From Bradyrhizobium sp. CB82 (GTDB lineage: Bacteria; Pseudomonadota; Alphaproteobacteria; Rhizobiales; Xanthobacteraceae): 64,000 nt of DNA. Position numbers and translations under genes: made by a program. The stretch is from contig NZ_CP121650.1 of NCBI RefSeq assembly GCF_029714405.1, forward strand, positions 4,717,001 through 4,781,000, in the 5' to 3' direction. Positions 5,439 to 23,876 of this stretch are shown piece after piece (position 1 is the first letter of the stretch; every line of letters begins with the position of its first letter). Below the pieces are notes generated by a model, which was given only the letters and a program-made list of their open reading frames with translations, was not told the DNA's origin and made no database searches.

Positions 5439-6566
5439 ATGCGAATGGCGGGGGTGGGCGCCATTACAGGTGTAGTCCGGGATGCAAGCCAAAGTGGCGG
5501 CGGCATGGCTGCTGTTGCGTTGTCTTTGCATCGTGCCTTGTTGGCGCAGCGAGTTGACGCTCGCTTGGTCTGCGGACTGGCGCCGGAACAAGATGTCGAA
5601 CATGTCTACGTGGCGGGCCGAACCGTTGGCTCCATTGGCGTGCTCCCAAAGAAATTGCTTTGCGGCGTGATCCATATTCACGGACTGTGGACCCCTTTTG
5701 AGTGCCTTGCGCAGCTACAAGCAAGGCGTAGTCGTGCCTTGCTGGTTATCAGTCCACATGGTGCGCTGTCGCCTCGCGCATTGGATCGCAAGCGAATAAA
5801 AAAGCTCATAGCCTGGACTCTCTACCAGCGTAGAATAGTTCAGCGTGCCCATTTGCTGATTGCAAATTCGGAACGGGAGCATGACCAGCTTCGGAGATCC
5901 GGGCTGACCCCTCCCATTGCCATCATTCCCAATGGGGTCGATGGCCCTAAAATGTCTGTCATATCGTCGGAGGACGCAAACGCGGAGAGGAAAAAGATCG
6001 TTCTTTTTCTTGCTCGCCTCTGTCCCACAAAAGGAATTCCCGACCTGCTGGAAGCGTGGCGCGGCCTCGAGGACCGCCGCGGCTATGAACTGCATGTCCA
6101 TGGTTTTGGCGACCCGAGCTATCGCGCCTACCTGGAGGTGCGAATCCGACAACTCGGTCTCCGTGGCGACGTGAAACTTCTCGGTCCACTATACGACCGG
6201 GACAAATGGGAGAAGCTTCATACCGCCTCCATCTATGTGCTGCCGTCTTACACTGAGAGCTTCGGGATCACGGTTGCCGAGGCACTATCAGCCGGCCTCC
6301 CTGTCATCACCACCAGCGCAACGCCTTGGGCGCACCTTGCGGGAAAGAACCTGGGTTGGATTGTCAAAAATGACATCGGTCAGTTGCGACAAGCGTTGCG
6401 AGAAGCATTGTCGCTGTCTCCATTTCAGCTGAAAGCGATAGCCGATGCGGCGCGGCGCTACGCGTTGCAGTTTTCATGGCCTGACATTGCCGGACGATAT
6501 CTTAAAACTTACGAATGGCTCTGCGATCAAGCAGCGTCCAAGCCTGAATGGGTGAGCTTGGTCTAA
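5439..6566 (+). CDS. GT4-family glycosyltransferase (first gene of the polysaccharide operon)
   Basis: The 375-residue GT-B enzyme is presumed to transfer a nucleotide-activated sugar onto the growing lipid-linked polysaccharide at the inner face of the membrane. Visible marks are the glycine-rich N-terminal acceptor loop (SQSGGGMAAVALSLHRALL), HIHGLWTPFE, the linker IPNGVD, the donor-domain start IVLFLARLCPTKGIPDLLEAW, and the E-x7-E-type PSYTESFGITVAEALSAGLP near residue 270. The start has a GTAAGG sequence at proper distance. It overlaps the next gene by one base (TAATG), implying translational coupling. The sugar specificity cannot be read from sequence. Confidence 0.88.
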   Translation: MRMAGVGAITGVVRDASQSGGGMAAVALSLHRALLAQRVDARLVCGLAPEQDVEHVYVAGRTVGSIGVLPKKLLCGVIHIHGLWTPFECLAQLQARRSRALLVISPHGALSPRALDRKRIKKLIAWTLYQRRIVQRAHLLIANSEREHDQLRRSGLTPPIAIIPNGVDGPKMSVISSEDANAERKKIVLFLARLCPTKGIPDLLEAWRGLEDRRGYELHVHGFGDPSYRAYLEVRIRQLGLRGDVKLLGPLYDRDKWEKLHTASIYVLPSYTESFGITVAEALSAGLPVITTSATPWAHLAGKNLGWIVKNDIGQLRQALREALSLSPFQLKAIADAARRYALQFSWPDIAGRYLKTYEWLCDQAASKPEWVSLV

Positions 6567-7786
6567 TGCGTATTTTGATTGTGACTCAATATTTTTGGCC
6601 GGAGTCATTTGTTGTCAACGACCTGGTTCGATGGCTGACCAAGGCCGGACATTCAGTGACGGTCGCGACCGGCAAGCCGAACTATCCGACCGGCGAACTC
6701 GCACCTGGTTATACGCGGGATAAGGTTCAATACGAAACGTTCGCCGGCACGCAAGTCTTCAGAATCCCGAGCCGGCCGCGACACCAGGCTACAGCGCTCA
6801 ACCTTGCCCTGAACTACCTGTCCTTCGCTTGGTCAGGTCTGCTATGGTTTCCGCGGCTGCTCAAAAGGCACGAGTTCGACGTTATCCTCGTGCTCGCGAT
6901 GCCGATAACGGCGGCGCTTCCAGCTATTCTTCTGCGCTGGCTCAAACGTTGCCATCTTGCGCTCTGGGTGCAGGACTTGTGGCCGCAGGTCGTGACGTCG
7001 ACCGGCTTTGTAGATAGCCGCCTCGTCGTCGCCACTCTTCATGTTCTAGTCAAATTCATTTATCGCGCCGCAGACACCGTTCTGGTCCAGTCAAACCAGT
7101 TCGTGGGGCCGATCGCCAAGATGATTCCAAAGAAGAAAATATTCGTCCTCCCGAATTTTGCTCCCCCCAGTGACGAAGAAGCGCTTCCATTGCCCCTTGC
7201 TATCGCGGGCTTGTTTCCGCGCCGGTTTTCGGTGGTGTTTGCAGGCAATCTTGGCAGAGCCCAGTCCCTGTCCACGATTGTCCACGCAGCGCGCATTCTT
7301 CGGCTTCACCCTGATATCCTGATCGTGGTCGCCGGAACGGGCAGCCATGCCGAGACGCTTAGAGAGGCAGTCACTGCTGCTAAGCTAACGAACGTTCAAA
7401 TGATCGGCATGCTGGATCGTCGTATGATGCCTGAATTGTTCAGGCACGCGGACTGCCTCCTCGTGACTCTTGGCAATCACCCAGCTCTCAACGCAACTAT
7501 TCCAAGCAAAATACAGGCTTACATGAAAGCGGGCAGGCCAATCGTCGGCGCCGTTAACGGCGCGGCCGCGGATCTGATCGAGCGGGCAGGGGTCGGCCTC
7601 ACGGGTCAAGCCGAAGATGGCGCTGGCCTCGCGCAAAACATAATCGCTCTTACGAAAATGCCTGCAATCAAACGGCAGGAAATGGGGCGAGCCGGCCGGG
7701 CGTATTACGAAAAGCACTTTGATGCCGATCAGGTGCTGAGCCGGCTACTGGGAATTTTGCAAAGGGAAATGAGTTGCCATGCCTAA
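6566..7786 (+). CDS. wbuB: WbuB-like GT4 glycosyltransferase (probable L-FucNAc transferase)
   Basis: The 406-residue enzyme begins MRILIVTQYFWPESFVVNDL, a start shared by WbuB-type enzymes, followed by GKPNYPTGELAPGY, LWVQDLWPQ, and the nucleotide-binding half from FSVVFAGNLGRAQSL. In E. coli O26, WbuB adds N-acetyl-L-fucosamine and is encoded beside fnlABC; here the next three genes form the same type of sugar pathway, which supports this assignment. The internal ATG at 6566 was preferred over an earlier one because it overlaps the previous stop by one base and starts exactly at the conserved N-terminus. It overlaps the next gene by 8 bp. Confidence 0.8.
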   Translation: MRILIVTQYFWPESFVVNDLVRWLTKAGHSVTVATGKPNYPTGELAPGYTRDKVQYETFAGTQVFRIPSRPRHQATALNLALNYLSFAWSGLLWFPRLLKRHEFDVILVLAMPITAALPAILLRWLKRCHLALWVQDLWPQVVTSTGFVDSRLVVATLHVLVKFIYRAADTVLVQSNQFVGPIAKMIPKKKIFVLPNFAPPSDEEALPLPLAIAGLFPRRFSVVFAGNLGRAQSLSTIVHAARILRLHPDILIVVAGTGSHAETLREAVTAAKLTNVQMIGMLDRRMMPELFRHADCLLVTLGNHPALNATIPSKIQAYMKAGRPIVGAVNGAAADLIERAGVGLTGQAEDGAGLAQNIIALTKMPAIKRQEMGRAGRAYYEKHFDADQVLSRLLGILQREMSCHA

Positions 7787-8648
7787 GAGTAAAGTCCTTA
7801 TCCTGGGCGCCAGCGGAATGTTAGGCGCAGCTGTATTCCGCTCCTTTCTTGCATCCGCCGATTTCGAGGTGGTTGGAACCATCAGGGACAGAGTTGCCCT
7901 CGGCTTCTTCTCATCCGTAGCATCCGCGCGTCTGCTGCAGTTGGATGTCCTTGACGAGGATGCTCTTGTCTCACTTCTGGATCGGGAGCGTCCTTCCGCC
8001 GTTATCAACTGTATCGGCCTGGTGAAGCAGCTTGCATCAGCGGCCGACCCGCTGATCACGCTCCCGATCAATGCGATCTTTCCGCACCGGCTGGCCCGCA
8101 TCTGCTCCTTGATTGGTGCCCGGCTGGTCCACATCAGCACAGATTGCGTCTTCTCCGGAGCCAAAGGAAATTACACGGAAGAGGACGTCACCGACGCGAA
8201 GGATCTCTATGGTCGATCGAAGCTTCTGGGCGAGCTCGTCGAATACGACCATGCCGTGACGTTGCGCACGTCGATCATCGGCCGAGAGCTCTACAGCGCA
8301 CGTTCCCTGGTGGAATGGTTTCTGTCCCAGCAGGGCGCCGTCAAGGGCTACGCGAAGGCTGTTTTTTCGGGGCTGCCGACCACGGAACTCGCCGCAGTTA
8401 TTCGCGATGTCGTCCTGCCGAGAAAAGATCTCGCGGGACTCTATCACGTCTCGGCGAGGCCGATCTGCAAGTTTGATCTGCTACATCTTCTCGCGCGCCA
8501 GTACGGAAAGCGAATTGAGATCCTCAGGGACGATCAGACGAAGATCGATCGTTCTCTGAACTCCGAGAAATTTCGCAGCGCGACCGGCTATCGAGCGGCC
8601 GACTGGCCGGAACTGATCAAGACAATGTACGAAACTGATTTGCGTTGA
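7779..8648 (+). CDS. SDR-family NDP-sugar reductase (RmlD/FnlB-like)
   Basis: The 289-residue protein has the Rossmann glycine motif (GASGMLG, residues 10-16) and the catalytic Tyr144-x3-Lys148 (YGRSK), preceded by HISTDCVFSG, a signature of RmlD-type 4-ketosugar reductases. FnlB/WbjC/CapF proteins carry an extra C-terminal cupin domain; this one is about 80 residues shorter and lacks it. Its place between wbuB and fnlA suggests it reduces the 4-keto intermediate made by the downstream dehydratase on the way to UDP-L-FucNAc or a related 6-deoxy amino sugar. dTDP-rhamnose synthesis is less likely because no rmlA, rmlB or rmlC is present. Confidence 0.82.
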   Translation: MPKSKVLILGASGMLGAAVFRSFLASADFEVVGTIRDRVALGFFSSVASARLLQLDVLDEDALVSLLDRERPSAVINCIGLVKQLASAADPLITLPINAIFPHRLARICSLIGARLVHISTDCVFSGAKGNYTEEDVTDAKDLYGRSKLLGELVEYDHAVTLRTSIIGRELYSARSLVEWFLSQQGAVKGYAKAVFSGLPTTELAAVIRDVVLPRKDLAGLYHVSARPICKFDLLHLLARQYGKRIEILRDDQTKIDRSLNSEKFRSATGYRAADWPELIKTMYETDLR

Positions 8649-8658
8649 GAGATGAATA

Positions 8659-9693
8659 ATGTTTGACAATAAGATTTTGATGATCACTGGCGGCACGGGA
8701 TCCTTTGGAAACGCCGTTCTGCGTCGGTTTCTCCACACGGAGATTGCAGAGATTCGCATTTTCAGCCGCGACGAGAAGAAGCAGGAGGATATGCGCACGG
8801 AGCTTAGGAATCCGAAGCTAAAGTTCATCTTGGGCGACGTTCGCGACTTCGAAAACGTTCGTGATGCGATGAAGGGGGCAGACTACATCTTCCATGCCGC
8901 AGCCCTGAAGCAGGTGCCATCCTGTGAGTTCTATCCGATAGAGGCCTTGCGCACCAATGTGATTGGCACGGAGAACGTGCTGCAGGCCGCAATAGAGACG
9001 GGCGTAGAGCGCGTTGTCTTCCTGAGCACAGACAAGGCTGTATACCCGATCAATGCCATGGGCCTGTCAAAGGCTATGGCCGAGAAGGTTGTCCTAGCGA
9101 AATCGAGGGTGGCTGGCGACACGATCATGTGCATTACCCGGTACGGCAATGTGATGGGCTCCCGCGGCTCCGTCATTCCCTTGTTTATGCAGCAGATCAA
9201 GAACGGCCTGCCGATCACCGTGACAGATCCCAATATGACCCGGTTCCTGATGTCGCTTGAAGAGTCGGTCGAGCTTGTTGTCCATGCTTACCAGCACAGC
9301 AGGCCAGGCGATATTTTTGTGCAGAAGGCGCCGGCTGCCACCATGGGTGATCTGGCGAGCGCACTGAAGGAGCTGTTCGAGGCGAGCAATCCGGTCAACA
9401 TCATCGGCACTCGGCATGGAGAGAAGCTGTTCGAGACGCTGATTGGCCGCGAAGAAATAATAAGAGCCAGTCACTCGGACCGGTACTTTCAGATCCCGGC
9501 GGACAACCGCGACTTGAATTACGACAAGTTCTTCGTGGAGGGTGAAGTGGAGCTCTCGACGGTGGATGACTACACGTCTCACAACACCTATCGCCTCACA
9601 GTTGAAGGCCTCAAGGAGCGCCTGTTGTCTCTGGATTTTGTCCGCGCCGAACTTGGACGATCGTCCCTTCGGCCCGCGCTTTCAGCATTGTGA
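8659..9693 (+). CDS. fnlA: UDP-GlcNAc 4,6-dehydratase/5-epimerase (FnlA/WbjB/CapE type)
   Basis: The 344-residue length matches the soluble FnlA/WbjB group. The N-terminus has GGTGSFG (residues 11-17) and RDEKKQEDMR; the middle has HAAALKQVPSCEF, STDKAVYPINAMGLSK and TRYGNVMGSRGSVIP. In place of the usual SDR Tyr-x3-Lys there is Met-x3-Lys (MGLSK), as I recall for CapE-type enzymes. It should remove water from UDP-GlcNAc and invert C5, the first step to UDP-L-FucNAc. It follows the reductase gene after 10 bp. A decayed second copy of part of this gene lies at 19744-20136. Confidence 0.88.
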   Translation: MFDNKILMITGGTGSFGNAVLRRFLHTEIAEIRIFSRDEKKQEDMRTELRNPKLKFILGDVRDFENVRDAMKGADYIFHAAALKQVPSCEFYPIEALRTNVIGTENVLQAAIETGVERVVFLSTDKAVYPINAMGLSKAMAEKVVLAKSRVAGDTIMCITRYGNVMGSRGSVIPLFMQQIKNGLPITVTDPNMTRFLMSLEESVELVVHAYQHSRPGDIFVQKAPAATMGDLASALKELFEASNPVNIIGTRHGEKLFETLIGREEIIRASHSDRYFQIPADNRDLNYDKFFVEGEVELSTVDDYTSHNTYRLTVEGLKERLLSLDFVRAELGRSSLRPALSAL

Positions 9694-9711: not shown

Positions 9712-10848
9712 ATGAAGGTGATGACATTGGTCGGAACGCGGCCGGAGCTCATCAAGATGAGCCGCGTCATTGCGGAATTCGATGCGAAACTTGATCATGT
9801 TCTTGTCCATTCGGGACAGAACTATGATTTCGAGCTGAATCAGATTTTCTTCGATGAACTTGGAATCCGCAAACCCGATCACTTTCTGGGAGTGAACAAC
9901 GAAACGCCTGCCAAGGCGATAGCGGATGTCATCGCGAAGACCGACGACGTCCTGAACACGGAAAGACCGGATGCCCTGTTGCTATACGGCGATACCAATA
10001 CCTGTCTCGCTGTGATCGCCGCGAAAAGGAAACAGATTCCCGTCTTCCATATGGAAGCCGGCAACAGATGTTTCGACCAGCGAGTGCCGGAGGAGTTGAA
10101 TCGGAAGGTATTGGATCATCTCAGCGACGTAAATCTCGTGCTCACAGAACACGCGCGCCGCTACCTGCTCGCGGAGGGGATCCGGCCGGAGACGATTATG
10201 AAGACCGGTTCCCACATGCAGGAGGTGCTTGAGTTCTACATGCCGAAGATCGAGGCGTCCGATGTTCTGACGCGACTAGGTTTGGAAGAACGAACATTCT
10301 TCCTTGTGAGCATCCACCGGGAGGAAAACGTCGATAGCGTCGAGCATTTGCGCGACATCCTCGGCACGTTACGGAATTTGGCGACCACCTATGGATACCC
10401 CGTTCTGGTTTCCACCCATCCCCGGACGCGGAAGCGGCTCGATGCGCTCGGACAGATCGAAATGGATGATCGGATTGTGTTCGCGAAGCCCTTCGGGTTT
10501 ATCGATTACATTCGTCTTCAGATGGGCGCCCTGTGCGTACTCTCCGACAGCGGCACCATCACCGAGGAAGCATCGCTGCTTAACCTGCCGGCGATAACAA
10601 TCCGAAATGCGCACGAGAGACCCGAAGGCATGGACGTCGGGACGCTCGTCATGAGTGGCCTGAAGAGCCGGCGCGTCTTGGAGGCCGTGCAGGTCGTCAT
10701 CAATCATCATCAAACAGGCTCCCGGACGTTCAAGGCAGTGCCAGACTACGAAACCGGTCCGGTCTCAAAGCAGGTGCTTCGCATCGTGTTGAGCTACGTC
10801 GACTACGTTAACAGAACCGTCTGGCACAAAGGTTCAGGCGGAGAATAG
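9712..10848 (+). CDS. fnlC: UDP-sugar 2-epimerase (FnlC/WbjD/CapG type)
   Basis: The 378-residue protein belongs to the WecB/NeuC fold: VGTRPELIKM at the start, HSGQNYDFELNQIFF, HMEAGNRCFDQRVPEE, SIHREENVD, and the C-terminal SDSGTITEEASLLNLP loop. In the UDP-L-FucNAc pathway this enzyme makes the final C2 inversion. It follows fnlA after 18 bp and closes the three-gene sugar-nucleotide module. Ordinary UDP-GlcNAc/ManNAc epimerases are related, but the neighbours favour the FnlC role. Confidence 0.87.
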   Translation: MKVMTLVGTRPELIKMSRVIAEFDAKLDHVLVHSGQNYDFELNQIFFDELGIRKPDHFLGVNNETPAKAIADVIAKTDDVLNTERPDALLLYGDTNTCLAVIAAKRKQIPVFHMEAGNRCFDQRVPEELNRKVLDHLSDVNLVLTEHARRYLLAEGIRPETIMKTGSHMQEVLEFYMPKIEASDVLTRLGLEERTFFLVSIHREENVDSVEHLRDILGTLRNLATTYGYPVLVSTHPRTRKRLDALGQIEMDDRIVFAKPFGFIDYIRLQMGALCVLSDSGTITEEASLLNLPAITIRNAHERPEGMDVGTLVMSGLKSRRVLEAVQVVINHHQTGSRTFKAVPDYETGPVSKQVLRIVLSYVDYVNRTVWHKGSGGE

Positions 10849-10928: not shown

Positions 10929-11417
10929 ATGTCTGCGCCAATGCGAAGCAATCTCGAAATCTGGAAAAGGCTCCGGGACGAGAATTATTTCGAGAAACGC
11001 CCCTCTAACGAAGCGGCGCAGGCGACACAATGGTTTCTCCCGCTTCGCAGCGACATGCGTCTTGCAGGCATCGGCCGCGGTTACGGGCGAGTGACGCTCT
11101 GGTTGGCCGCGCTCATGAAGCATGTCTACGGTATAGATGTCAGCGAAACGATCCTGAAAAAGGGCCGTCGCCTAGTTGTCCGAGCGCGGCGTCAGCAACC
11201 TTACAACGGTCCTTGCACCTTCGCGCAAGCCGTTCCGGTCGGCATCGACCGGGTATTCTCGATCGTGGTGATGCAGCATTTGACGCGCGACCTCATGCGC
11301 AAATACTTCACCGAACTCGGGCGAAAGCTGGTCCGCGGCGGCCAGCGTCGTCGCTCGGTTTCTGGACGTGGAGACGTCGGGCTACAACGCGTGGGGCGCA
11401 AGAAATGCCAGTTTTAG
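10929..11417 (+). pseudogene. SAM-dependent methyltransferase fragment, frameshifted
   Basis: The N-terminal half of a class I methyltransferase is recognisable: IWKRLRDENYFEKRP, a damaged motif I (LAGIGRGYGRVTLWLA, where EIGCGYGR is usual), and HVYGIDVSE. After KLVRGG near 11340 homology jumps to another frame (SVVARFLDVETSGYN), and the sequence then runs directly into the start of the next glycosyltransferase, so the C-terminus is gone. It is presumably an old O-methyltransferase gene of the locus, truncated when the GT2 gene arrived. Confidence 0.72.
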
Positions 11418-12985
11418 TCTCAATCATAGTTCCCGTGTTCAACGGGGCCAATTACATGCGAGCCGCGATCGATTCTGCTCTCGCTCAGTCTTGGCCAGCG
11501 ACAGAAGTCATCGTCGTTAACGATGGCTCGGCTGATGGGGGGGCCACGGCAGAGATTGCTCGATCATACGGTGACCGGATTCACTACATCGAGAAACCCA
11601 ATGGGGGCGTTGCCTCGGCACTCAACGCTGGTATCTCAGCTATGAAAGGCGATGTTTTTTGCTGGCTTTCTCACGACGATCGACACTGGCCCAACAAGAT
11701 CGAAAGACAAATGGCTGAGTGGGAAAAGCGCGGTCACAGCGACATCGTTCTGATAAGTGACTATCGCTTGATCAACGAACACAGCGACACAATTGCAGAC
11801 GTTCGCCTTGCACATGAGACACTAGCAGCCAAACCGCAATATACCCTTCTGCGAGGCTCGATTCACGGCTGCTCTGTCTTCGTTCCAAGGAAGTTGTTCG
11901 CCAAAGTCGGGACTTTCGACGAGAGCTTGCCGACGACCCAGGACTACGACCTGTGGCATCGCATGCAGCGTGCCGGCATTGAGTTCGTCCATATGCCAGA
12001 GATCTTAATCGACAGCCGATGGCACGCCGAACAGGGTTCAAAGAAAATCAATCATATCCACGAAGCAACGCAATTTTGGCTGCGTGTTGTCAAAGACATC
12101 GGAGTGGACGAACGAGAAGCACTAGAGGGAAGCAATTTCCGTTTCCTTGCTCAGATGGCAGACTTTTTGGCGACAAACGGGCTCACAGACGCAGCGGATT
12201 GCCTGATGGAACAGGCGAACCAGGGCCTTTCAGATATTCTCGTCTCAATCATAATACCGACTTACAATCGGTATCATCTTTTGGCAGGCGCCATCAGCAG
12301 CGCCTTGAAACAAACCCATCGTCGCATAGAAATCATTGTGGTTGACGACGGTTCGACCGATGATGCCTGCTCCTTAGAAACCATAGTTGCAAGACATGCT
12401 TCGCACATTCGGCTTCTGCGCCAAGCGAATTCAGGCCCCGCTGCCGCGAGGAATAGGGGGTGGATGGCGGCTAGGGGAAAGTACGTAGCGTTTCTCGATT
12501 CAGATGATCTATTTCTACCTCATAAAATCGAATCGCAACTGCGCTTTATGGAGGCCACTTGCGCTGCATTCAGCCACACCAGCTACTTCCGCCATTGGGC
12601 TCGCAAGCGCGGTCTCGTGCGCATCAACTCAGGAGCGGGGAATAAATTCCCCCAGATAATCGGCGGGTGTGGAATTGCCACGCCGACCGTCATGATGCTC
12701 AACAATCTCAAGGACAACTTTCAATTTCCGGAGGGCGTCCGCCTCGGCGAAGACATCATCTTGTGGCTACGCGTTGCGGCGAAACATGGGATTGAAGGGT
12801 TGGACAGTGCGCTAACCGTAGTCCGCGCCTCCCAAGAATCTACAGGATACGATACATCGAAGCTATCGAAAGGAATAGCCAACATTCTTGCGGCAGTACG
12901 TGAAGACGTTGACCTTGCCCGTCATGAAACGGAAGTTGCGAGATTAGCTCACGCCGCCAACACGATCGAGGCTCCGACGATATGA
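11405..12985 (+). CDS. Tandem two-domain GT2 glycosyltransferase
   Basis: The 526-residue protein has two complete GT-A domains in one chain. Domain 1 (about 1-250) has VSIIVPVFNGANYM, VIVVNDGSADGG and WLSHDD; domain 2 (about 278-520) has VSIIIPTYNRYHLL, IIVVDDGSTDD, AAARNRGW and FLDSDD. Both keep aspartates expected for metal and nucleotide binding, so each may be active and the protein could add two sugars in sequence. The ATG at 11405 was chosen because it lies just before domain 1; the frame is open for 125 codons upstream but those are antiparallel to sense in the methyltransferase fragment. The stop overlaps the next start (ATGA). Confidence 0.88.
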   Translation: MPVLVSIIVPVFNGANYMRAAIDSALAQSWPATEVIVVNDGSADGGATAEIARSYGDRIHYIEKPNGGVASALNAGISAMKGDVFCWLSHDDRHWPNKIERQMAEWEKRGHSDIVLISDYRLINEHSDTIADVRLAHETLAAKPQYTLLRGSIHGCSVFVPRKLFAKVGTFDESLPTTQDYDLWHRMQRAGIEFVHMPEILIDSRWHAEQGSKKINHIHEATQFWLRVVKDIGVDEREALEGSNFRFLAQMADFLATNGLTDAADCLMEQANQGLSDILVSIIIPTYNRYHLLAGAISSALKQTHRRIEIIVVDDGSTDDACSLETIVARHASHIRLLRQANSGPAAARNRGWMAARGKYVAFLDSDDLFLPHKIESQLRFMEATCAAFSHTSYFRHWARKRGLVRINSGAGNKFPQIIGGCGIATPTVMMLNNLKDNFQFPEGVRLGEDIILWLRVAAKHGIEGLDSALTVVRASQESTGYDTSKLSKGIANILAAVREDVDLARHETEVARLAHAANTIEAPTI

Positions 12986-14562
12986 TTTGGACTCCGCGCA
13001 ATGCGTTACGAATGATTTTCCACCGGCTGCCGCCAGTTCGTCGCTTGCGCTCTGCACTTCTGGATCAAAGCGTCGAATTGGTTGCGACAAGCCAAGCATT
13101 ATCGCAGCTGCGAATTGAAATTGCGCAATCGCAAACCAAATGTTCAATTGCAGCGACCGAATCCGCTCAGCTCAAAGATGAATTAGCGAGTGTCACCGAG
13201 AAGCTTGATGCAGCTTTAGCTCTGGCGTCATCGCTCGAGGTCGAACGGGATCTAGCGAATGGCGCGCTCCAAACCAAACTCTCAATCGCAACGGCCGAAT
13301 CCGCTCATCTCAAAGCTGATTTAGCGAGTGTTGCCGAGAAACTTGATGCAGCCTTAGCTCTCGCGTCATCGCTCGAGGTCGAACGGGATCTAGCAAATGG
13401 CGTGGTCCAAACCAAACTCTTAGTCGCAATGGCCGAATCCGCTCATCTCAAAGCTGGATTAGCGGGTGTCACCGAGAAGCTCGATGCAGCCTTAGCTCTC
13501 GCATCATCGCGCGAGGTTGAGCGGGATCTAGCGAAGGACGCGTTCCAAACCAAACTCTCGGGAGAGGTCTCAAGTCGTTTCGACGTAGTACTTCGTTCAA
13601 TAGGTGAGATTACTAGCGAGCACACTGACCTCGTTCTAAAAAAAGTCCACGTTGCGGCTCAAACGCAAGAGCAGAAAATCGAATTGTTAACCGCAAACGT
13701 CACCGCCATTGGTAGTCAAGCAGAAGCGCAGATGCGTGAAATACGAACCCGCCTCGAAGGAGATAGGCGGTCGGCCGACGGAAATGCCGTCGGTCTCTAT
13801 CTGGACTTGCTAGAGGGTTCGTTAACGGGAACGCTGCGTTCGGACGTTTCGCAGGCGCCTTGGGCGAAGAACGTGTTTGACCCCGCGCGTCGGGCGGTTG
13901 GACGAGATTGGCCGTCGCACGCAGAGACGATGATCGGTACCGCGCGGATGAAGAATTTGCGGGCGCTGACGCAGCGGGCTCTCGAGGAAAAAGTGCCCGG
14001 CGATCTGATCGAAACCGGCGTGTGGCGCGGCGGTGCATGTATTTACATGCGCGGCATTCTGGCAGCGGCCGGCGATACAAGCCGCCGGGTATTTGTCGCC
14101 GATAGCTTCCGCGGCCTTCCTGCTCCTGACGAAGCCGCCTACCCCGCGGACGCCGGCGACCAGCACCACACGTTCGATCAGCTCGCCGTCTCGCGCGCCG
14201 AAGTCGAGGCCAATTTTCGTCGGTACGCCCTGCTGGACGAACAGGTCGTGTTCTTGGAGGGATGGTTCAAGGACACCTTGCCGACCGCCCCCATCGAGAA
14301 ATTGGCAGTTCTGCGGCTCGATGGCGACATGTACGAAAGCACGATGGATACCCTCAACGCACTCTACGCGAAAGTATCTCCAGGCGGGTTCGTGATTGTC
14401 GACGACTACATTCTCAAGGCCTGCGCCCAGGCCGTGGATGACTTCCGAGCTCGTTATGGAATTTTAGCACCCATGCACGAAGTCGACGGCGCGGCGGTTT
14501 GGTGGCAGGTGCCAAAGGATTCGCCTGCCGGATCTCCAGCCAATCTCAGCGGTGAGGCATGA
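12982..14562 (+). CDS. Coiled-coil protein fused to a TylF/MycF-type O-methyltransferase
   Basis: The 526-residue protein has two parts. Residues 20-260 are a predicted coiled coil that contains three copies of a 46-residue repeat (each with EKLDAALALASS.EVERDLA). Residues 265-520 resemble the macrocin O-methyltransferase family (PF05711): LIETGVWRGGACIYMRGIL binds SAM, then FVADSFRGLP, and LRLDGDMYESTMDTL with FVIVDDY supplying metal-binding acidic residues. Stand-alone family members are about 250 residues. It probably methylates a sugar of the polysaccharide; the coiled coil may hold it to a partner or set a length, as in some chain-terminating methyltransferases (inference). It overlaps both neighbours by ATGA. 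Confidence 0.85.
   Translation: MIWTPRNALRMIFHRLPPVRRLRSALLDQSVELVATSQALSQLRIEIAQSQTKCSIAATESAQLKDELASVTEKLDAALALASSLEVERDLANGALQTKLSIATAESAHLKADLASVAEKLDAALALASSLEVERDLANGVVQTKLLVAMAESAHLKAGLAGVTEKLDAALALASSREVERDLAKDAFQTKLSGEVSSRFDVVLRSIGEITSEHTDLVLKKVHVAAQTQEQKIELLTANVTAIGSQAEAQMREIRTRLEGDRRSADGNAVGLYLDLLEGSLTGTLRSDVSQAPWAKNVFDPARRAVGRDWPSHAETMIGTARMKNLRALTQRALEEKVPGDLIETGVWRGGACIYMRGILAAAGDTSRRVFVADSFRGLPAPDEAAYPADAGDQHHTFDQLAVSRAEVEANFRRYALLDEQVVFLEGWFKDTLPTAPIEKLAVLRLDGDMYESTMDTLNALYAKVSPGGFVIVDDYILKACAQAVDDFRARYGILAPMHEVDGAAVWWQVPKDSPAGSPANLSGEA
13135..13548 (+). repeat. Three tandem 138-bp units inside the coiled-coil coding region
   Basis: Units start at 13135, 13273 and 13411, each beginning ACCAAA; a fourth ACCAAACTCTC start occurs at 13549 and then diverges. 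The units are nearly identical at DNA level, so the duplications are recent and copy number may vary between strains. The period is a multiple of three, keeping the frame. Confidence 0.9.
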
Positions 14563-15812
14563 ACCGCAGCGTTCCTCAGGAAAGCCTGCCTGTGGCCGGC
14601 GAACATCCATCACGTTTGCCGAAAATCGCCGTGGTCACCACGGCCGCGCCTCCGTCTGCGAGTGGACAAGCGAGAGTTCTGGAGCGTCTCATGGTACCTG
14701 CAAGAGTTGCTCCTCCGGTCTACCTCACGGATCAACTTCAAGCGCTCGAGGCCGAAGGCAACCGCTTCGGCAGCTATCATTCGCTTGGTCCTCCCCGCCA
14801 TCAATTGATATCTCCCGCACCGGAAGCGTTGCGGAAATTAAACAACTATGGTGGGTTGCTGCGCAGTGCGATGTCGAGAACGAAGGAAATCACATCGATC
14901 CTGCGAAACGAGTCGGTCGATGCGATCGTTGGCTGCACGGCCAGTCCGTTCGACCTTCCCGCAGCTTATTTTGCGTCGCGGCGGCTGAAAGTTCCCTTCG
15001 TCGCCTATCTGTTCGATGATCCCATCTTTCAGTGGGAGCCAGGCATCTACCGGTGGCTGGCGCGATTTTGGGAGCCGATATGGGGCCGCGGCGCCGCCGC
15101 CATAATCGCACCGAACGAAGTCCTGGCGAACGACGTGCGCGGGCGTCTCCCAGCGGCGAAGATCTATATTGTGAGAAATCCCGTTGACCCCGCGGGCTTC
15201 TCCAATGAGCCCACCGGCATACCGCAGGATGAGCCGGAACGACACGCCGGGCGACCCTGCCGATTACTGTACACGGGATCAGTGTATTCGGCGCAGGCGA
15301 GCGCCTTTCGCAATCTGAACGCGGCGCTTAACCGGTTGGCGGGCCGCTTCGAACTCGACGTCTACACCTCTCAGCCCATTACTGCGCTGGCCGCAAACGG
15401 CCTCGACGGCCCCTATGTGCGCCATCATGCACATACTCCTCAGTCGACCGCACTGTCGTTGCAACGAAATGCGGACGTCCTTTTTCTGCCGCTGTCATTC
15501 GACTCCGCGATCCCCGAGGCGATCCTATCGTCTTCGCCCGCCAAGCTCGGAGAATATCTTGCCGCCGGCACCCCTATCCTGGTTCATGCGCCCGCCGGGT
15601 CGTTTGCGACCGAGCTCCTGCGGAATGCTGACGCCGGCCTGATTGTCGACACCTCCGATCCGGATCGGCTGGTCGCGGCGTTGACCACGATTTCCAACGA
15701 CCCCAAACTTAGGCGCCGTCTCACCAAGAACGCAGCACTCCTTGCCGAGGAATTCCACGTGGAGCGGGCGCGAGATGCGTTTTGTTCAGTCATCTCGTCG
15801 TTGGATCGCTGA
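14559..15812 (+). CDS. Glycosyltransferase, GT-B fold
   Basis: The 417-residue protein has the two-lobed layout of GT4-like enzymes: an N-terminal VVTTAAPPSASGQARVLERL loop, the interdomain IVRNPVDPAGF, the donor-lobe start LLYTGSVYSAQ, and near the C-terminus PAKLGEYLAAGTPILVHAP in the donor-binding position. The usual E-x7-E is not obvious. It starts inside the stop of the methyltransferase fusion (ATGA overlap) and its stop abuts the next ATG, so it is part of the same operon. Specificity is unknown. Confidence 0.8.
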   Translation: MNRSVPQESLPVAGEHPSRLPKIAVVTTAAPPSASGQARVLERLMVPARVAPPVYLTDQLQALEAEGNRFGSYHSLGPPRHQLISPAPEALRKLNNYGGLLRSAMSRTKEITSILRNESVDAIVGCTASPFDLPAAYFASRRLKVPFVAYLFDDPIFQWEPGIYRWLARFWEPIWGRGAAAIIAPNEVLANDVRGRLPAAKIYIVRNPVDPAGFSNEPTGIPQDEPERHAGRPCRLLYTGSVYSAQASAFRNLNAALNRLAGRFELDVYTSQPITALAANGLDGPYVRHHAHTPQSTALSLQRNADVLFLPLSFDSAIPEAILSSSPAKLGEYLAAGTPILVHAPAGSFATELLRNADAGLIVDTSDPDRLVAALTTISNDPKLRRRLTKNAALLAEEFHVERARDAFCSVISSLDR

Positions 15813-17192
15813 ATGACCGTGCGGCGCAAGATACTCTTTGTAGCGATGCACAATAGCCCGCACACCGCGCGATGGATCGATATCGCGGCGGATCTGGGTT
15901 ACGACCTCCATATTTTTCCGCTCGAGCCGAGCACTCCACACCACAAGCTGCGGGATTTGACGCTTCACGTTCCGGTCCTGGACGAGCCGCCAAAAGAGGC
16001 CGTGAAGGAAGCCCGCCGGAAAGGTATCCGTTCTCGCGTCCTCAACTTCCTGCGTCTCCTGCGATCCGACCCAGCTCATGCCTTGAAGCGCATCAAGCAA
16101 GCAATGTTGATCAGTCCGGCAGCGGAAGTTATCGACGTTGAGTCGCCGCCCTTTGACACCACAAGTTCAGGCGTGAAAATTCGACACTTGTCGACTTTTC
16201 AGACTATCGGCGCCATTGCCGATGTCACGGAAACCGTTCGCCTCGGACGCGATGACGAGAGTGATCAAACCACACTGCGCATTCATGGTCCTGACGTGCT
16301 TGCCTCTCTCATCAGCAAGCTCAAGCCGGATTTGATCCACTCGATGGAGTTTCAACATTCGGCCTATCTCGTGCTCGCTGCGCGCGATCGTATTAAAGGT
16401 CCGTTTCCTCGCTGGCTCGCGACTAACTGGGGCAGCGATATCTTTTTATTCGGCCGGCAACCCGACCATGCGCGGCAGATCCGGCGGGTGTGCGAAGCTA
16501 TCGATCTCTACTCCTGCGAATGCCATCGCGACCTCGCACTTGGACGGGAATTCGGATATCGCGGACCGGACCTGCCGGTTCTGCCGAATTCCGGCGGCAT
16601 GGACATCAACCACGTCCTGTCGCTCCGTAATCCAGAGCCCCCCTCAAGGCGCAAGCTGATCATGGTCAAGGGTTATGATCATTTTGCCGGGCGCGCGATG
16701 GTGTCGCTTGCCGTGCTCGAGCGCTTTGCCGAGCAGCTGAAGGATCACACGATCGTTCTGTTCTCGATCAGCGCAAAACCACGCGTCCGCGCACTCGAAC
16801 TCGCCGAAGCAGGAACTCTCAAAATCAAGGTGATCGACTGGGCCACTCATGACGATATTCTGCGGCATTTCGGGCAGGCGCGAATCTATCTCGGAATCAG
16901 CATCTCTGACGCTATTTCGACGTCGGTGCTGGAAGCAATGGTGATGGGAGCTTTTCCGATCCAGACCAATACCTCGTGCTGTGAGGAATGGTTCGTTCAC
17001 GAAAAGACCGGCTTTGCCATCCCGCCTGACGATTTTGAGAAGATATGCGAGCGCTTCGCAAGCGCGTTGACCGACGACAATCTGGTTGACACTGCTGCCG
17101 TCGAGAATTTCGAAATCATAAAATCGAGACTGGCGGTCGAAGTGCTTCGTCCGAAAATGGATGAGTTCTACCGACGGGCATTTGCCCAATGA
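15813..17192 (+). CDS. Glycosyltransferase, GT4-like
   Basis: The 459-residue product begins immediately after the previous stop (TGA then ATG). It shows ILFVAMHNSPHTARWIDIAAD at the start, DLIHSMEFQHSAYL and LATNWGSDIFLFG in the middle, and SISDAISTSVLEAMVMGAFPIQTNTSC near residue 375, which corresponds to the E-x7-E donor loop of GT4 enzymes. An inserted segment around residues 50-100 makes it longer than its neighbours. Confidence 0.82.
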   Translation: MTVRRKILFVAMHNSPHTARWIDIAADLGYDLHIFPLEPSTPHHKLRDLTLHVPVLDEPPKEAVKEARRKGIRSRVLNFLRLLRSDPAHALKRIKQAMLISPAAEVIDVESPPFDTTSSGVKIRHLSTFQTIGAIADVTETVRLGRDDESDQTTLRIHGPDVLASLISKLKPDLIHSMEFQHSAYLVLAARDRIKGPFPRWLATNWGSDIFLFGRQPDHARQIRRVCEAIDLYSCECHRDLALGREFGYRGPDLPVLPNSGGMDINHVLSLRNPEPPSRRKLIMVKGYDHFAGRAMVSLAVLERFAEQLKDHTIVLFSISAKPRVRALELAEAGTLKIKVIDWATHDDILRHFGQARIYLGISISDAISTSVLEAMVMGAFPIQTNTSCCEEWFVHEKTGFAIPPDDFEKICERFASALTDDNLVDTAAVENFEIIKSRLAVEVLRPKMDEFYRRAFAQ

Positions 17193-17220
17193 TTGCGATC
17201 TGCGTGTTGGCTTTCAAAGC

Positions 17221-18477
17221 ATGAAGGTGCTTCAACTTAATTCATCGGACCTGATCGGAAGTCGTTTTAACGGCTTCGACGTTCGCCACCTACTCGCGGC
17301 GGACGGGATCGAAACGCATCATCTAGTCTGGAACAGGCTGAGCGATAGCGACTCCTCGAGCAAGTTTTTTGAAATTCCTCGCAGTCGCGACTTAACGAAA
17401 GTGCTAGGAAGAATCGAACGGGCGTATTCTTTCCATTCGCGTCTTCAGCTTCAATCGTTCACGCTGCCGCTACATCGCGCGTTCCGCGAAGCAGATGTGG
17501 TTCACTATCACATCATTCACGATGGCTATTTCGGCCTCGATGCGCTGCCCTGGCTCAGCCGACTCAAGCCGAGTATCTGGACTTGGCACGATCCCTGGCC
17601 GATGACGGGGCACTGCATCTACCCGCTGGGCTGCGAAAGGTGGAAGATCGGCTGTGGGGAATGCCCGAGGCTGGACCTCGTGTTCGAGATGCGCCGCGAT
17701 CGCACGGCCCAGGACTTTCAATGGAAGCAGCGGCTGATCCACAAGAGCGACATCGATGTTGTGGTTGCATCCGAGCATATGCGGCGGATGGTGCAATCTT
17801 CGCCGATCGGTCGAGCCCTCCGGCTGCATTGCATTCCCTTCGGCATCGAGCTGGAGAAATTCTGTCCAGGCGATGGCGCCGCCGCGCGCGCGCGCCTCGG
17901 GGTGCTGCCAAACCGGGTGGTGATAGGCGTGCGGGCTTTTCCCGATAGCCCGTATAAAGGCTTTGGTTTCTTCCTTGAAGCCCTGCGCCGTCTGGGAGAG
18001 ATCAATGTCCCGCTCTGCATTGTAGCGACCCACGCTAAGGCGCAGCTGAATGAATTCATCGGAAGGCATCAGATCATCGATTTGGGATGGACAAACGACG
18101 AGGCTTTGATTCTAGACACCTTCAAGGCTGCGGATTTCTTCGTCATGCCGTCGACCGCGGAAGCGTTCGGCATGATGGCGATCGAGGCGATGGCGTGCGG
18201 GAAACCGGTCATCGTATTTGACGGCACCTCCCTGCCTGAAGTCGCCCGGGCTCCTGATGTCGGTATATCGGTCCCGATGGGGGATATCGACGGCCTCGCC
18301 GCGGCCATATGCCGCCTTGCCGGGGATGAAGCGGAAAGACGTGCGCGAGGATCGGCGGGGCGGACCACCGCCGAAGATTTGTACGGCGATCGACTATTTG
18401 CCCGGCGGCTGGCCGGACTGTACCGGTCCGTGGCCGACAAGCATGCCTTGAACAGTCCCAGCGAGCCTGCGTCATAA
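17221..18477 (+). CDS. GT4-family glycosyltransferase
   Basis: The 418-residue enzyme begins MKVLQLNSSDLIGSRFNGFD. It carries WTWHDPWPMTGHCIYPLGCE with several cysteines nearby (a Cys cluster seen in some GT4 enzymes that act on amino sugars), IPFGIELEKF at the domain junction, and PSTAEAFGMMAIEAMACGKP with the E-x7-E motif near residue 320. The ATG at 17221 is preferred over a start 20 codons upstream, which would overlap the previous gene and precede the conserved N-terminus. The stop overlaps the next start by one base (TAATG). Confidence 0.88.
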   Translation: MKVLQLNSSDLIGSRFNGFDVRHLLAADGIETHHLVWNRLSDSDSSSKFFEIPRSRDLTKVLGRIERAYSFHSRLQLQSFTLPLHRAFREADVVHYHIIHDGYFGLDALPWLSRLKPSIWTWHDPWPMTGHCIYPLGCERWKIGCGECPRLDLVFEMRRDRTAQDFQWKQRLIHKSDIDVVVASEHMRRMVQSSPIGRALRLHCIPFGIELEKFCPGDGAAARARLGVLPNRVVIGVRAFPDSPYKGFGFFLEALRRLGEINVPLCIVATHAKAQLNEFIGRHQIIDLGWTNDEALILDTFKAADFFVMPSTAEAFGMMAIEAMACGKPVIVFDGTSLPEVARAPDVGISVPMGDIDGLAAAICRLAGDEAERRARGSAGRTTAEDLYGDRLFARRLAGLYRSVADKHALNSPSEPAS

Positions 18478-19697
18478 TGAAGACGCTACTGCTCACCGAC
18501 ATACCGCCCTCCAGCAATCTCACGGCCGGGATTGTCACAGCGCAAATGTGCCGGTTCGTCCCCGCCGGAGAATTGGCGATCTTTTGCGTGCAAAACCGTC
18601 ATCTGAGCCCGGAGCTTTATCCGGACCTGGCTGATATCCCGATACGCTTCGCGGTCAAACCTAACGAACTCAGCTGTCGCAGTATTCGGGGGATTTCGGT
18701 CGGATTGGCTGGCGCGACCGCAATCGAGACGTTCCGTCGCCGGACCAGGATTTCGCCGCTGGTGCGTCAGGCTGTCGCCTACGGCAAAGAACAGAACGTC
18801 TCATCCCTCTGGGTCATCCTTCAGGGCCAAACCATGGTCCGAATGGCCGCTGGGGTTGCAGACGGACTCGGCGTTCCGCTCCGAGCCCAGATTTGGGATC
18901 CGCTGGATTGGTGGCTCCGAGCTCACGGCGTCGATCGTTTCAACCGCAGATGGGATGTCGCCGCCTTCGACCGAACGATGCGGGCGGCGACGGCCTGTGC
19001 TGCCGCCTCGTGGGCCATGGCGGGGCAATACGAAGAGCTCTATGGGACACCGAGCCAGGCCATCATTGCCTCGCTCGATCGGTCTATCGCGCGACGGCCA
19101 GAGCCGGCCTTGCGAACCACCGGCGAGCTAGTGATCGGAATGGCCGGGCAATTTTATGCCAATGAAGAATGGCTTGCGCTCGTGAGGGCGCTCGAACTCG
19201 CTCGTTGGCAAGTGGCCGGCCGTCGAGTAACCATTCGCGTATTCGGGCATCAGCGCCCGGTAGCCATACCAGAGGATCATCTTGATTTTCTTGGTTGGCA
19301 ATCGCAGGCGAAATCCGTGGAGCTATTATCGGATACCTGCGACATTCTCTACTGTCCGTACCCCTATGCGACTTCGATGGCCGACGTCGCCAAACTCAGT
19401 TTTCCATCCAAAATCCCAACCTACCTCGCCTCGGGGAGACCAATCCTTTTCCACGGGCCGGACTATGCGAGTCCTGCGCAATACCTGAAATCGACGCGCG
19501 CCGGGTTCATTTGCCGGTCCATGGACCCCGACGCTGTATATGACGGCTTGATGCATTTGGTCGAGGATGCCCAGCTCTATGCGCGTCTCGCCCTTTCTGC
19601 TCAGGAATCCTTCATGGCGGACTTTACCCTCGAACGCATGGAAGCCGGCGTACGCCAGTTTCTTGGGTATCAAAAGCGGGACGTATGCCTTGGGTAG
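18477..19697 (+). CDS. Glycosyltransferase-like protein (GT4 superfamily)
   Basis: The 406-residue protein has a GT-B-like layout with LLLTDIPPSSNLTAGIVTAQM at the N-terminus, AQIWDPLDWWLRAHG, VIGMAGQFYANEEWLALVRALE at the donor lobe, and SFPSKIPTYLASGRPILFHGP in the nucleotide-sugar-binding position. It lacks a clean E-x7-E. It is coupled to the previous gene (TAATG) and is the last glycosyltransferase before a scar and the exporter genes. Confidence 0.75.
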   Translation: MKTLLLTDIPPSSNLTAGIVTAQMCRFVPAGELAIFCVQNRHLSPELYPDLADIPIRFAVKPNELSCRSIRGISVGLAGATAIETFRRRTRISPLVRQAVAYGKEQNVSSLWVILQGQTMVRMAAGVADGLGVPLRAQIWDPLDWWLRAHGVDRFNRRWDVAAFDRTMRAATACAAASWAMAGQYEELYGTPSQAIIASLDRSIARRPEPALRTTGELVIGMAGQFYANEEWLALVRALELARWQVAGRRVTIRVFGHQRPVAIPEDHLDFLGWQSQAKSVELLSDTCDILYCPYPYATSMADVAKLSFPSKIPTYLASGRPILFHGPDYASPAQYLKSTRAGFICRSMDPDAVYDGLMHLVEDAQLYARLALSAQESFMADFTLERMEAGVRQFLGYQKRDVCLG

Positions 19698-20145: not shown

Positions 20146-20964
20146 ATGCGGCACCACCCAGCCTCGCTCGCCGAATTCGTCAAAGCATTGGGACGCCACC
20201 GCGTGCTGATCTTTCGTCTCGCGGCGCGGGAGTTCACGCAGCGGTTTCGCGGCAGCATGCTTGGCGCCACCTGGGCGGTGCTGATGCCGCTGTTCACGGC
20301 GGCAGTCTATACCTTCGTTTTCAGCAAGGTGTTCCAGGCGCGATGGCCAGGCATGTCTGACGGACCGTTCGACTTCGCGGTCATCTGTCTGACCGGAATG
20401 GTGGTCCATACGATATTCGCCGAGGCAGTGGCGCGCGCTCCTGCGCTTGTGCTTGGAAACGCAAGCTACGTCACAAAGGTGGTGTTCCCGCTCGAGATAT
20501 TGCCGGTCGTTACCGTCCTTACGGCGCTCGTGAACGCAGGCATCGGCATCGCCATCGTCCTCATCGGCAACCTTCTCCTGAACGGAAAGATCTATTTCAC
20601 GGTTCTGATGCTGCCGCTCGTGATTGCTCCTTATCTGCTGTTTGTGATCGGCTTGGTGTTCTTCTTTGCAGCCGCGGGCGTCTATCTGCGTGACCTTTCC
20701 CAACTTGTGTCCTTGCTCATCACCGTGACGTTGTTCCTGACGCCGATCTTCTTTCCGATCGAGGCCATTCCAGAATCGTTCAGACGCGCCATCCTACTCA
20801 ATCCACTCACCTTCGTGGTGCAACAAGCGCGCGACGTCACGATTTTCGGCCGGTGGCCGGATTTCGTCGGACTTACGATTTACAGTGTGGCGGCGCTGGC
20901 AGCGCTTGCGTGCGGATTTTGGATTTTTCAGAGGTTACGAAACGGATTCGCCGATGTCCTCTGA
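20146..20964 (+). CDS. wzm: ABC-2 polysaccharide export permease (Wzm-like)
   Basis: The 272-residue inner-membrane protein has about six hydrophobic segments and the family start LAAREFTQRFRGSMLGATWAV. A VYLRDLSQLVSLLITVTLFLTPIFF segment is the hallmark of Wzm/TagG/KpsM permeases. With Wzt it would flip the finished, lipid-linked polysaccharide to the periplasm. It overlaps the wzt start by 11 bp. Confidence 0.92.
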   Translation: MRHHPASLAEFVKALGRHRVLIFRLAAREFTQRFRGSMLGATWAVLMPLFTAAVYTFVFSKVFQARWPGMSDGPFDFAVICLTGMVVHTIFAEAVARAPALVLGNASYVTKVVFPLEILPVVTVLTALVNAGIGIAIVLIGNLLLNGKIYFTVLMLPLVIAPYLLFVIGLVFFFAAAGVYLRDLSQLVSLLITVTLFLTPIFFPIEAIPESFRRAILLNPLTFVVQQARDVTIFGRWPDFVGLTIYSVAALAALACGFWIFQRLRNGFADVL

Positions 20965-22520: not shown

Positions 22521-23876
22521 TTAGATGCAGGCTTCCTGGTGTGCGCCTTTCGAGGCGATGGCGGTGTTGCTCTGAATGCGGAGCACTTCTCCTCCTGCAA
22601 CCCCAACCGCTAGAACGTAGAGCCAACCCTCGTACGTATCCATCAAATGAGAGTTGAAAACCGAGCTTGCGATATTCTGTACTGTCGCCAGCATACCGAT
22701 CCAGGCGACCGGGGCGCTGATGCAGAAGAGTCGCAGATGGGCTATCCACATTACCCAAAGAATTATGATTCCGATGCTGCCCCACTGGACGGCAGCGGCA
22801 AGCGTCTGGTTGTGAGGATTTCTGACAATGACGGCCGAAACCCCTGCCTGGCCGATCGCATCTTGCTGGAAGAGACCTCGGATCGAACCGGTCCCGTGGC
22901 CCATGACGGGCGCCATTTCAAAAAATCGCAATGATTTGCGCCAAAATTCAAGTCTCATAGCTGCTGAAGGCTCGTTCTCTCCTATTGGAGCATCCGGCTG
23001 CACAGCCAATTCCGCGAAAATCGTGGAGACTTTTCGATGGAGGTTAGGAGATATCTGCCACAGTCCCCCGCAGATGATCGCTGCTCCGATCAGTCCTGCA
23101 ACGACTTGCCTTCGATTTACGTAGCGCACCGTCAACAGGACCAACATGATGGGGATATAAAAAAATGCGGTCCGAGCGACGTTGACGAAGGCGAGGTTGA
23201 CAAAGAATAGACTAGCGGTCGCTCCGAGGGCCGCAGCTGAATAGCGGTCTTTCCGAGACGCGGCCTCGAACGCGAGACCTGCCAAGGCAGTCGCAACGAA
23301 CGCAAATCCCTGACTTTGGTCGATATAATTTCTCACCGGAACGCCCGCGTAACCAACTTTTTCAACAATGGCCATCGAGGGCACTGCGTATGCTAGGAAG
23401 GAATACCCCAGCAAAATGACGTTCGATCCGACGAAGGCGGCGAATATCCATGTTGCCCGTCGACTGTACCGGAAGTGCAGCAACAGGAGCGGGAGCAGCA
23501 GCAGCTTGATCATCTTGTCGAGAGCGCCGAGCCGCTCTGAGCAAGGTACTCCGGTTGCCCAGGCCGTTCCGATGGCGGCAAGAACTACAAGCGCAATCGG
23601 CAAAGCTCCGGCAGGCTGACTTAAGGCTGCAACCAGCCGCTCCGTCTTGATCGTTGGCCAAATGAGAAAGAAAATTGCGATCCCAAATATGCTGGTTGCA
23701 CTGGTCGACCAAGGCAATACCGCCGCAAGGCCCAGCACCGCGACGTCAATGTTGCGACTTCGTAGAGCTCCCGCGCGGGCCAGCTCGGGGCCACTCCAGG
23801 TGGTACACGCGAGGGACGCTTCAGTCGCAAACCGGGATGTCGCGGCGTTGAGCTTGAGAGCTAACGATGTGAGCAT
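22521..23876 (-). CDS. O-antigen ligase (WaaL/Wzy superfamily membrane protein)
   Basis: The 451-residue polytopic membrane protein has about ten hydrophobic helices and a large periplasmic loop (about 290-370) that contains RLEFWRKSLRFFEMAPVMGHG and NPHNQTLAAAVQWG. The arginine and histidine are the features expected of PF04932 ligases. In an exporter-dependent pathway a ligase joins the polysaccharide to lipid A-core in the periplasm. The ATG at 23876 is preferred to a TTG four codons upstream. It converges with wzt, 115 bp apart; that gap shows no clear terminator. Confidence 0.87.
   Translation of the reverse strand: MLTSLALKLNAATSRFATEASLACTTWSGPELARAGALRSRNIDVAVLGLAAVLPWSTSATSIFGIAIFFLIWPTIKTERLVAALSQPAGALPIALVVLAAIGTAWATGVPCSERLGALDKMIKLLLLPLLLLHFRYSRRATWIFAAFVGSNVILLGYSFLAYAVPSMAIVEKVGYAGVPVRNYIDQSQGFAFVATALAGLAFEAASRKDRYSAAALGATASLFFVNLAFVNVARTAFFYIPIMLVLLTVRYVNRRQVVAGLIGAAIICGGLWQISPNLHRKVSTIFAELAVQPDAPIGENEPSAAMRLEFWRKSLRFFEMAPVMGHGTGSIRGLFQQDAIGQAGVSAVIVRNPHNQTLAAAVQWGSIGIIILWVMWIAHLRLFCISAPVAWIGMLATVQNIASSVFNSHLMDTYEGWLYVLAVGVAGGEVLRIQSNTAIASKGAHQEACI

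Follow-up and report, generated by a model that had tools for sequence, protein, structure and literature searches.

The stretch of DNA analysed here (the window) comprises 64,000 nucleotides of Bradyrhizobium sp. CB82, a soil bacterium with legume symbionts among its relatives (contig NZ_CP121650.1, positions 4,717,001 to 4,781,000) and holds an O-antigen cluster with Wzm/Wzt export genes, among which lies the gene that is our subject, encoding a coiled coil followed by a TylF-like methyltransferase domain (P0001; Table 1). An initial annotation, made from the letters alone, had described this gene as such a fusion and had proposed it as a cap-and-ruler enzyme analogous to WbdD. The fusion is confirmed: the open reading frame (ORF) is exact, Pfam TylF (PF05711) covers residues 290–509 with E = 3.4e-99, and the structure prediction that had been suggested, carried out in AlphaFold2 on an alignment of 36 sequences, gives long helices and then a confidently modelled TylF domain.

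By its profile match, predicted fold and acidic motifs the catalytic domain is a member of the TylF/MycF/NovP family. The top eight Foldseek rows, which include NovP, MycF and SpnH, have target TM-scores of 0.93–0.95 at 46–51% identity (0.95 and 51% for NovP), and these three enzymes have in common with the window protein both the catalytic domain and the conserved DGD and DDY motifs. D447 and D449 of the DGD motif presumably have a metal/base role, and D474–D475 of the DDY motif we take to have a metal role. NovP, MycF and SpnH differ from the window protein in that their substrates are small natural products and their solved chains, of 250–283 residues, lack a long coil. WbdD was absent from the seven PDB sequence matches of the window protein (E ≤ 0.001), in line with the earlier view that the two are unrelated; no kinase domain was found in the Pfam scan of the protein, and NCBIfam gave no name for it.

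The helices preceding this domain are predicted at moderate confidence (predicted local distance difference test, pLDDT, mostly 56–77 for residues 17–171 and 179–259, and mostly >90 in the TylF domain), and a COILS-type score exceeds 0.5 over 131 residues. Fully extended, the rod would measure ~36 nm (361 Å, by simple arithmetic at 1.485 Å per residue). Tandem Repeats Finder places 3.1 copies of a period of 138 within the ORF, at 13132–13559. Its score of 646 is the highest of the three arrays in the window (646, 89, 58), and in it three units are followed by the first 14 bases of a fourth. Pairwise identities between the units are 0.88, 0.83 and 0.86 in DNA and 0.80, 0.72 and 0.76 in protein, while the lag-138 identity outside the array is 0.23–0.37. 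The 46-residue units are thus a clear duplication, though not a brand-new one: the three units of the initial annotation are there, but its term ‘near-identical’ was overstated, because they share 83–88% of their DNA and 72–80% of their protein sequence. Chance or a frame artefact as the source of the repeats is ruled out by the strength of the in-frame array. Coiled coil scored in one of the 14 cluster proteins, this one, and in 0/13 of the others, so that the coil is not a common trait of the cluster enzymes.

Judging from sequence and predicted structure, we propose, with a probability of roughly three in four, that the window protein is a methyl-capping enzyme whose ruler is built of repeats, and that it serves an O-antigen dependent on an ATP-binding cassette (ABC) transporter. 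We infer terminal methylation, ruler action and recruitment of the polymerase by the N-terminus, as follows. The N-terminal end would sit at the membrane with the polymerising glycosyltransferases, most likely with the adjacent double-GT2 protein, and the rod-like coiled coil would hold the methyltransferase domain (TylF type, C-terminal) a constant distance away. Once the non-reducing end of a growing chain has come that far, its last sugar would be O-methylated, and this methyl ether would stop growth and mark the chain for the C-terminal domain of Wzt and for export. Gain or loss of 46-residue units (~7 nm each) would keep the coil in register and shift the catalytic domain, so that repeat number should set the modal chain length.

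Coiled-coil chain terminators are a known kind of protein. According to the available text of PMC11231755, the proteins that terminate ABC-dependent O-antigens are characteristically marked by an extended coiled coil; their terminator lies distal to the polymerase, and the carbohydrate-binding module (CBM) of the transporter reads the terminal group. In WbdD, the coil of which is about 200 Å long, a longer or shorter coil changes the modal chain length (available text of PMC5082667). WbdD of E. coli O8/O9/O9a and K. pneumoniae O3/O5, described for the O8 form as a simple methyltransferase (available text of PMC3482155), resembles the window protein in having a methyltransferase on a coiled-coil rod and a cluster with Wzm/Wzt-CBM, but the window has another methyltransferase family, no kinase match and an N- rather than C-terminal coil. 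As far as the same text of PMC11231755 goes, the terminating module precedes the coil in WbdD, WbbB, O4 ORF7 and O7 ORF6, whereas it follows the coil in the window protein; the reversed order relative to WbdD had been rightly pointed out, yet the TylF-coil order occurs near Wzt_C too, as described below. K. pneumoniae O7 ORF6 has a methyltransferase-kinase, a coil and two GT2 modules in one protein (PMC11231755, available text), comparable to the natural fusions L111–L113 considered below; these, however, have the mirror-image order, a TylF rather than a CgnL-like methyltransferase and no kinase match, and the window splits GT2-GT2 and coil-TylF into two overlapping genes. In WbbB of K. pneumoniae O12 the coil likewise separates the terminator and polymerase modules, but the terminator is a Kdo transferase instead of a methyltransferase and is N-terminal (PMC11231755, available text). 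On this evidence the window protein would work like the coiled-coil terminators without being a WbdD homolog, and what looks new is the TylF chemistry, the reversed order and the natural variants in ruler length. We found nothing on TylF in an O-antigen terminator role in the open-licence literature, subscription journals lying outside that scope, and ‘TylF’ does not appear in the main text of PMC11231755; since the search covered open-licence papers only, this absence is weak evidence.

The variants in rod length came from protein searches (best 120 of 2523, 651 and 880 matches). With units of 46 residues, P0001 of the window has three and P0003 has one, and the two proteins differ in length by 91 residues (two units minus one residue), with C-terminal parts 94% identical; the estimated rod shortens from 361 Å to 226 Å (about 23 nm), WbdD being of the same order. 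With units of 28, P0036 has seven, P0030 five, P0038 four and P0034 three; P0036 and P0030 are exactly 56 residues apart, and P0038 and P0034 also differ by smaller changes. With units of 42, P0143 has three and P0135 two, at a difference of 35 (one unit minus a 7-residue change). In these variant sets the first 45–60 residues are 67–98% and the last 230–237 residues 94–98% identical. L150, whose 2-contig genome belongs to another family, has eight units of 28. The relatives’ differing rods make the gene look like a natural dial for chain length.

Could the different repeat numbers be assembly artefacts, repeats collapsed or expanded in metagenomic contigs? P0003, P0034, P0036, P0038 and P0135 do lie on unnamed or metagenomic contigs, some of only 2.8–4.5 kb, and the protein identity between units of P0036 reaches 100%, so that miscounting is possible there. 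The window units, on the other hand, differ by 12–17% in DNA and come from a 2-contig genome, L150 is in a 2-contig genome as well, and P0143 is on a 5.2-Mb contig, and we therefore regard this explanation as very unlikely.

Of 136 homologs, collected by means of coiled-coil queries, 108 have an N-terminal coil. Strong tandem repeats occur in 24 of the 108, some of them close relatives, compared with none after one shuffle each; the period is a multiple of 7 in 20 cases and 11, 18, 29 or 46 in the other four. Since the periods are mostly multiples of 7, the coil register is kept while length and sequence drift. It is conceivable that the coil is an oligomerisation stalk only and that units come and go by neutral drift with no effect on chain length. 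Repetitive coding DNA readily gains and loses units, and the catalytic domain of P0004 is 92% identical to that of P0001 over an N-terminal part only 27% identical, with a similar mismatch between catalytic domain and coil in P0053 compared with P0062 and P0072; such diversity under near-identical catalytic domains indicates that the coil sequence is weakly constrained. Against a mere stalk speak the rarity of register-breaking periods (even 11, 18, 29 and 46 can be composed of 7s and 11s, which by chance also holds for many larger integers), the frequency of the N-terminal coil among the homologs and the preference of coils for the vicinity of Wzt_C. We consider a stalk unlikely.

This preference was established on 115 distinct TylF loci, collected with three duplicates dropped. 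Named genome contigs supplied 80 (the best 80 of 159 relatives), and samples of 397 genomes at order, 385 at class and 398 at phylum level another 33 (E ≤ 1e-40); four were refetched from a 242-genome genus sample, and the window completes the set. L115, which repeats L031, and other genus matches with 1.5-kb flanks were left out. Coils were scored with the COILS MTK matrix, entered by hand, which misses polar C-terminal coils and scored in 0/133 TylF-domain stretches and 0/60 shuffles. Wzm, Wzt and Wzt_C were located by profiles grown from the window’s proteins, with Pfam confirmation of Wzt_C for the window, L111, L150, L085 and the L031 genome only. With starts trimmed to the first methionine, Wzt_C lies within 10 kb of 9/10 coiled-coil TylF genes and of 10/105 without a coil (p = 1.2e-7). 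Trimming hid coils in L032, L041 and L151; with untrimmed starts the counts are 9/13 and 10/102 (p = 6.6e-6), and 10/14 and 9/101 if the coil threshold is also lowered from 28 to 21 residues. When only the 41 loci that have two or more glycosyltransferase ORFs are counted, Wzt_C is near 7/7 coiled-coil TylF genes and 5/34 others, and four of these five have long C-terminal tails, a class from which L036, L047, L155 and L174 were excluded by hand as their tails hold other domains. Nine TylF proteins near Wzt_C have tails of 85–160 residues, six of which scored no coil. L036 has a coil-like stretch after TylF, and Wzm and Wzt, yet no Wzt_C match was found there.

Natural fusions provide another line of evidence. 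In three genomes of the window’s genus (L111–L113) one open frame of about 1134–1157 codons, directly upstream of wzm-wzt, encodes GT2-GT2-coil-TylF; Pfam finds two GT2 stretches and TylF in each of L111 and L113. The GT2 part is 34–38% identical to the double-GT2 protein of the window and the TylF part 58–64% identical to its counterpart, with the GT2 modules N-terminal and TylF at the other end of the coil, an arrangement that may apply to the window proteins too. The coil-TylF architecture itself is found in the window, L031 and L150, the last of which has its double-GT2 homolog next to the coil-TylF gene on the same strand. P0139 contains both GT4-type Pfam domains and TylF and, by eye, a coil in between; in P0113 and P0121, named glycosyltransferases at source, Pfam shows no such domain (E ≤ 0.001). 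The opposite, TylF-coil order is found near Wzt_C in L038, L040, L043, L055, L064, L066 and L085, with Nitrospira, Nitrosospira, Pseudomonas and unplaced metagenome-assembled genomes as hosts. Most of these tails end in an SSTSWRxTxPLR-like motif, and that of L085 is modelled as a single 89-residue helix (residues 277–365, mean pLDDT 70, AlphaFold2 on a six-sequence alignment). Since both orders occur, this methyltransferase has acquired its rod at the N-terminus in some lineages and at the C-terminus in others.

Some TylF loci stand somewhat apart. In L066 (9233–11149) and L043 (9167–11185), TylF-coil proteins adjoining Wzt_C have long N-terminal extensions, which in L066 matches Sulfotransfer_2 (Pfam). 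In L174 (2592–4340), 4 kb from Wzt_C, TylF is followed by a 283-residue C-terminal region that by eye resembles a second methyltransferase. L032 and L102 are coiled-coil TylF proteins in genomes lacking any Wzt_C match.

Several points weigh against the cap-and-ruler proposal. A coil can merely oligomerise or scaffold, and the N-terminal segment, with an amphipathic moment of 0.54 and a net charge of +4 over the first 40 residues, is only moderately amphipathic for a membrane end. Relatives in L031 keep coil-TylF without an adjoining double-GT2 homolog. Coiled-coil TylF lies without Wzt_C within 10 kb in L032, L041, L102 and L151, three of which, L032 excepted, are contig ends or short contigs; no Wzt_C match was found in the genomes of L032, L102 and L151, and that of L041 gave a below-cutoff match only. 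The loci are related and independent contrasts few, and the association p values therefore overstate the case: with the coil label widened to C-terminal tails, only four contrasts are well supported, of which 3–4 go as expected and 0 in the opposite direction (p 0.125–0.25). The analogy put forward initially is supported by the uniqueness of the coil in the cluster, the fusions, the variation in repeat number and the Wzt_C association, the last being weak as to independence across the phylogeny.

The remaining cluster genes are consistent with export by Wzm/Wzt. The cluster runs on one strand up to Wzt, with the ligase-like gene, which matched Wzy_C and was labelled O-antigen ligase, on the opposite strand, and no Wzx- or Wzz-type Pfam match was found in the 14 cluster proteins scanned (E ≤ 0.001). 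The stop codon of the double-GT2 gene overlaps the ATG of the coiled-coil/TylF gene by four bases (ATGA). Wzt had been placed next to the latter; the two do have cluster and strand in common, but the Wzt ORF starts 6.3 kb downstream, past four GT4-like genes and wzm, and its listed start overlaps wzm, the true one probably being later. Its Wzt_C domain (PF14524, E = 1.3e-35) is the sole match detected in the 10.1-Mb genome. The RmlD-like, FnlA-like and 2-epimerase-type genes together probably form a UDP-L-FucNAc set.

Table 1. Features of the O-antigen cluster and of the coiled-coil/TylF gene (window coordinates).
Feature	Position	Strand	Basis and remarks
GT4 glycosyltransferase	5439..6566	+	Pfam
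GT4 glycosyltransferase	6548..7786	+	Pfam
RmlD-like reductase (FnlB-like position)	7779..8648	+	Pfam, NCBIfam
FnlA-like UDP-GlcNAc 4,6-dehydratase/5-epimerase	8659..9693	+	Pfam; below TIGR04130 cutoff
Non-hydrolysing UDP-GlcNAc 2-epimerase type (FnlC-like position)	9712..10848	+	Pfam; above TIGR00236 cutoff
Double GT2 glycosyltransferase, candidate polymerase	11030..12985	+	Pfam; homologs of double-GT2 and coil-TylF fused in L111–L113
Coiled-coil/TylF protein P0001, proposed methyl chain terminator	12982..14562	+	526 aa; ORF, Pfam, AlphaFold2
Basic N-terminal segment, residues 1–30, proposed membrane/polymerase end (putative function)	12982..13071	+	RRxPxLRR-like consensus, 36-sequence alignment
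Long helices/coiled coil, residues 17–259 (17–171 and 179–259)	13030..13758	+	AlphaFold2, COILS-type score
46-residue repeat unit 1	13132..13269	+	Tandem Repeats Finder, unit comparison
46-residue repeat unit 2	13270..13407	+	Tandem Repeats Finder, unit comparison
46-residue repeat unit 3	13408..13545	+	Tandem Repeats Finder, unit comparison
Predicted helix break, residues 172–178, low confidence (pLDDT about 43)	13495..13515	+	AlphaFold2
TylF/NovP/MycF/SpnH-like O-methyltransferase domain, residues 271–509	13792..14508	+	Pfam, PDB sequence matches, Foldseek
D447-G448-D449 motif	14320..14328	+	Invariant in 36 homologs; aligned with SpnH, NovP, MycF
D474-D475 (DDY motif)	14401..14406	+	Invariant in 36 homologs; aligned with SpnH, NovP, MycF
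GT4-like glycosyltransferase	14559..15812	+	Pfam
GT4-like glycosyltransferase	15813..17192	+	Pfam
GT4 glycosyltransferase	17161..18477	+	Pfam
GT4-like glycosyltransferase	18477..19697	+	Weak Pfam match, below cutoff
Wzm, ABC-2 type membrane subunit	20146..20964	+	Pfam
Wzt, ABC ATPase with C-terminal Wzt_C (domain about 21935–22336)	20885..22405	+	Pfam
O-antigen ligase-like (Wzy_C) protein	22521..23888	-	Pfam

What if TylF methylates an internal sugar of each repeat unit, with the coil as a scaffold to the glycosyltransferases and another enzyme ending the chain? TylF relatives methylate a sugar hydroxyl and the sequence does not fix its position, and rhizobial O-chains are known to hold O-methyl deoxysugars internally. 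In K. pneumoniae O1, moreover, there is a terminal group without length control (available text of PMC11231755). A scaffold, however, needs no long rods that change by register-keeping steps, and no other methyltransferase family or coiled-coil match was found in the 14 cluster proteins scanned. By analogy with known systems, the presence of Wzt_C implies that the chains end in a group for it to read. Taken together, this makes internal methylation improbable in our opinion, and we retain the terminal cap with its ruler.

Elsewhere in the window, three further regions drew attention. At 44135–44190, just upstream of a solute-binding-protein ORF at 44257, there are four 14-bp tandem units (GATGTTCAGCGAAA and variants), the unit giving 4 matches versus 0.5 expected. 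At 28784–36561 the gene for a bacterial alpha-2-macroglobulin (1855 aa) overlaps by 4 bases the next one, for a penicillin-binding protein that combines transglycosylase, transpeptidase and BiPBP_C domains, which is an ordinary pairing. At 54438–62248 an HlyD-like adaptor accompanies two consecutive AcrB-type RND proteins.

Beyond the window, the relatives may represent a widespread, undescribed class of terminators, a proposal for which we see the balance as even, in which TylF is combined with a ruler on either side, gain and loss of units serve as a fast-evolving length dial, and whole rulers are replaced under near-identical catalytic domains. This class would cover coil-TylF, GT2-GT2-coil-TylF, TylF-coil and probably GT4-coil-TylF. 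The molecular-ruler model, according to the available text on WbdD, has its basis in coils engineered by insertion and truncation. The natural pairs with nearly the same ends (1 vs 3, 2 vs 3, and 3 to 7 units), ruler variants of soil bacteria and plant-associated ones, would provide tests of the model that are already at hand, while the fusion proteins offer polymerase, ruler and terminator in one chain for structural work. If the proposal is true, terminator and cap chemistry would become guessable from sequence in clusters where the gene is annotated only as TylF/macrocin O-methyltransferase.

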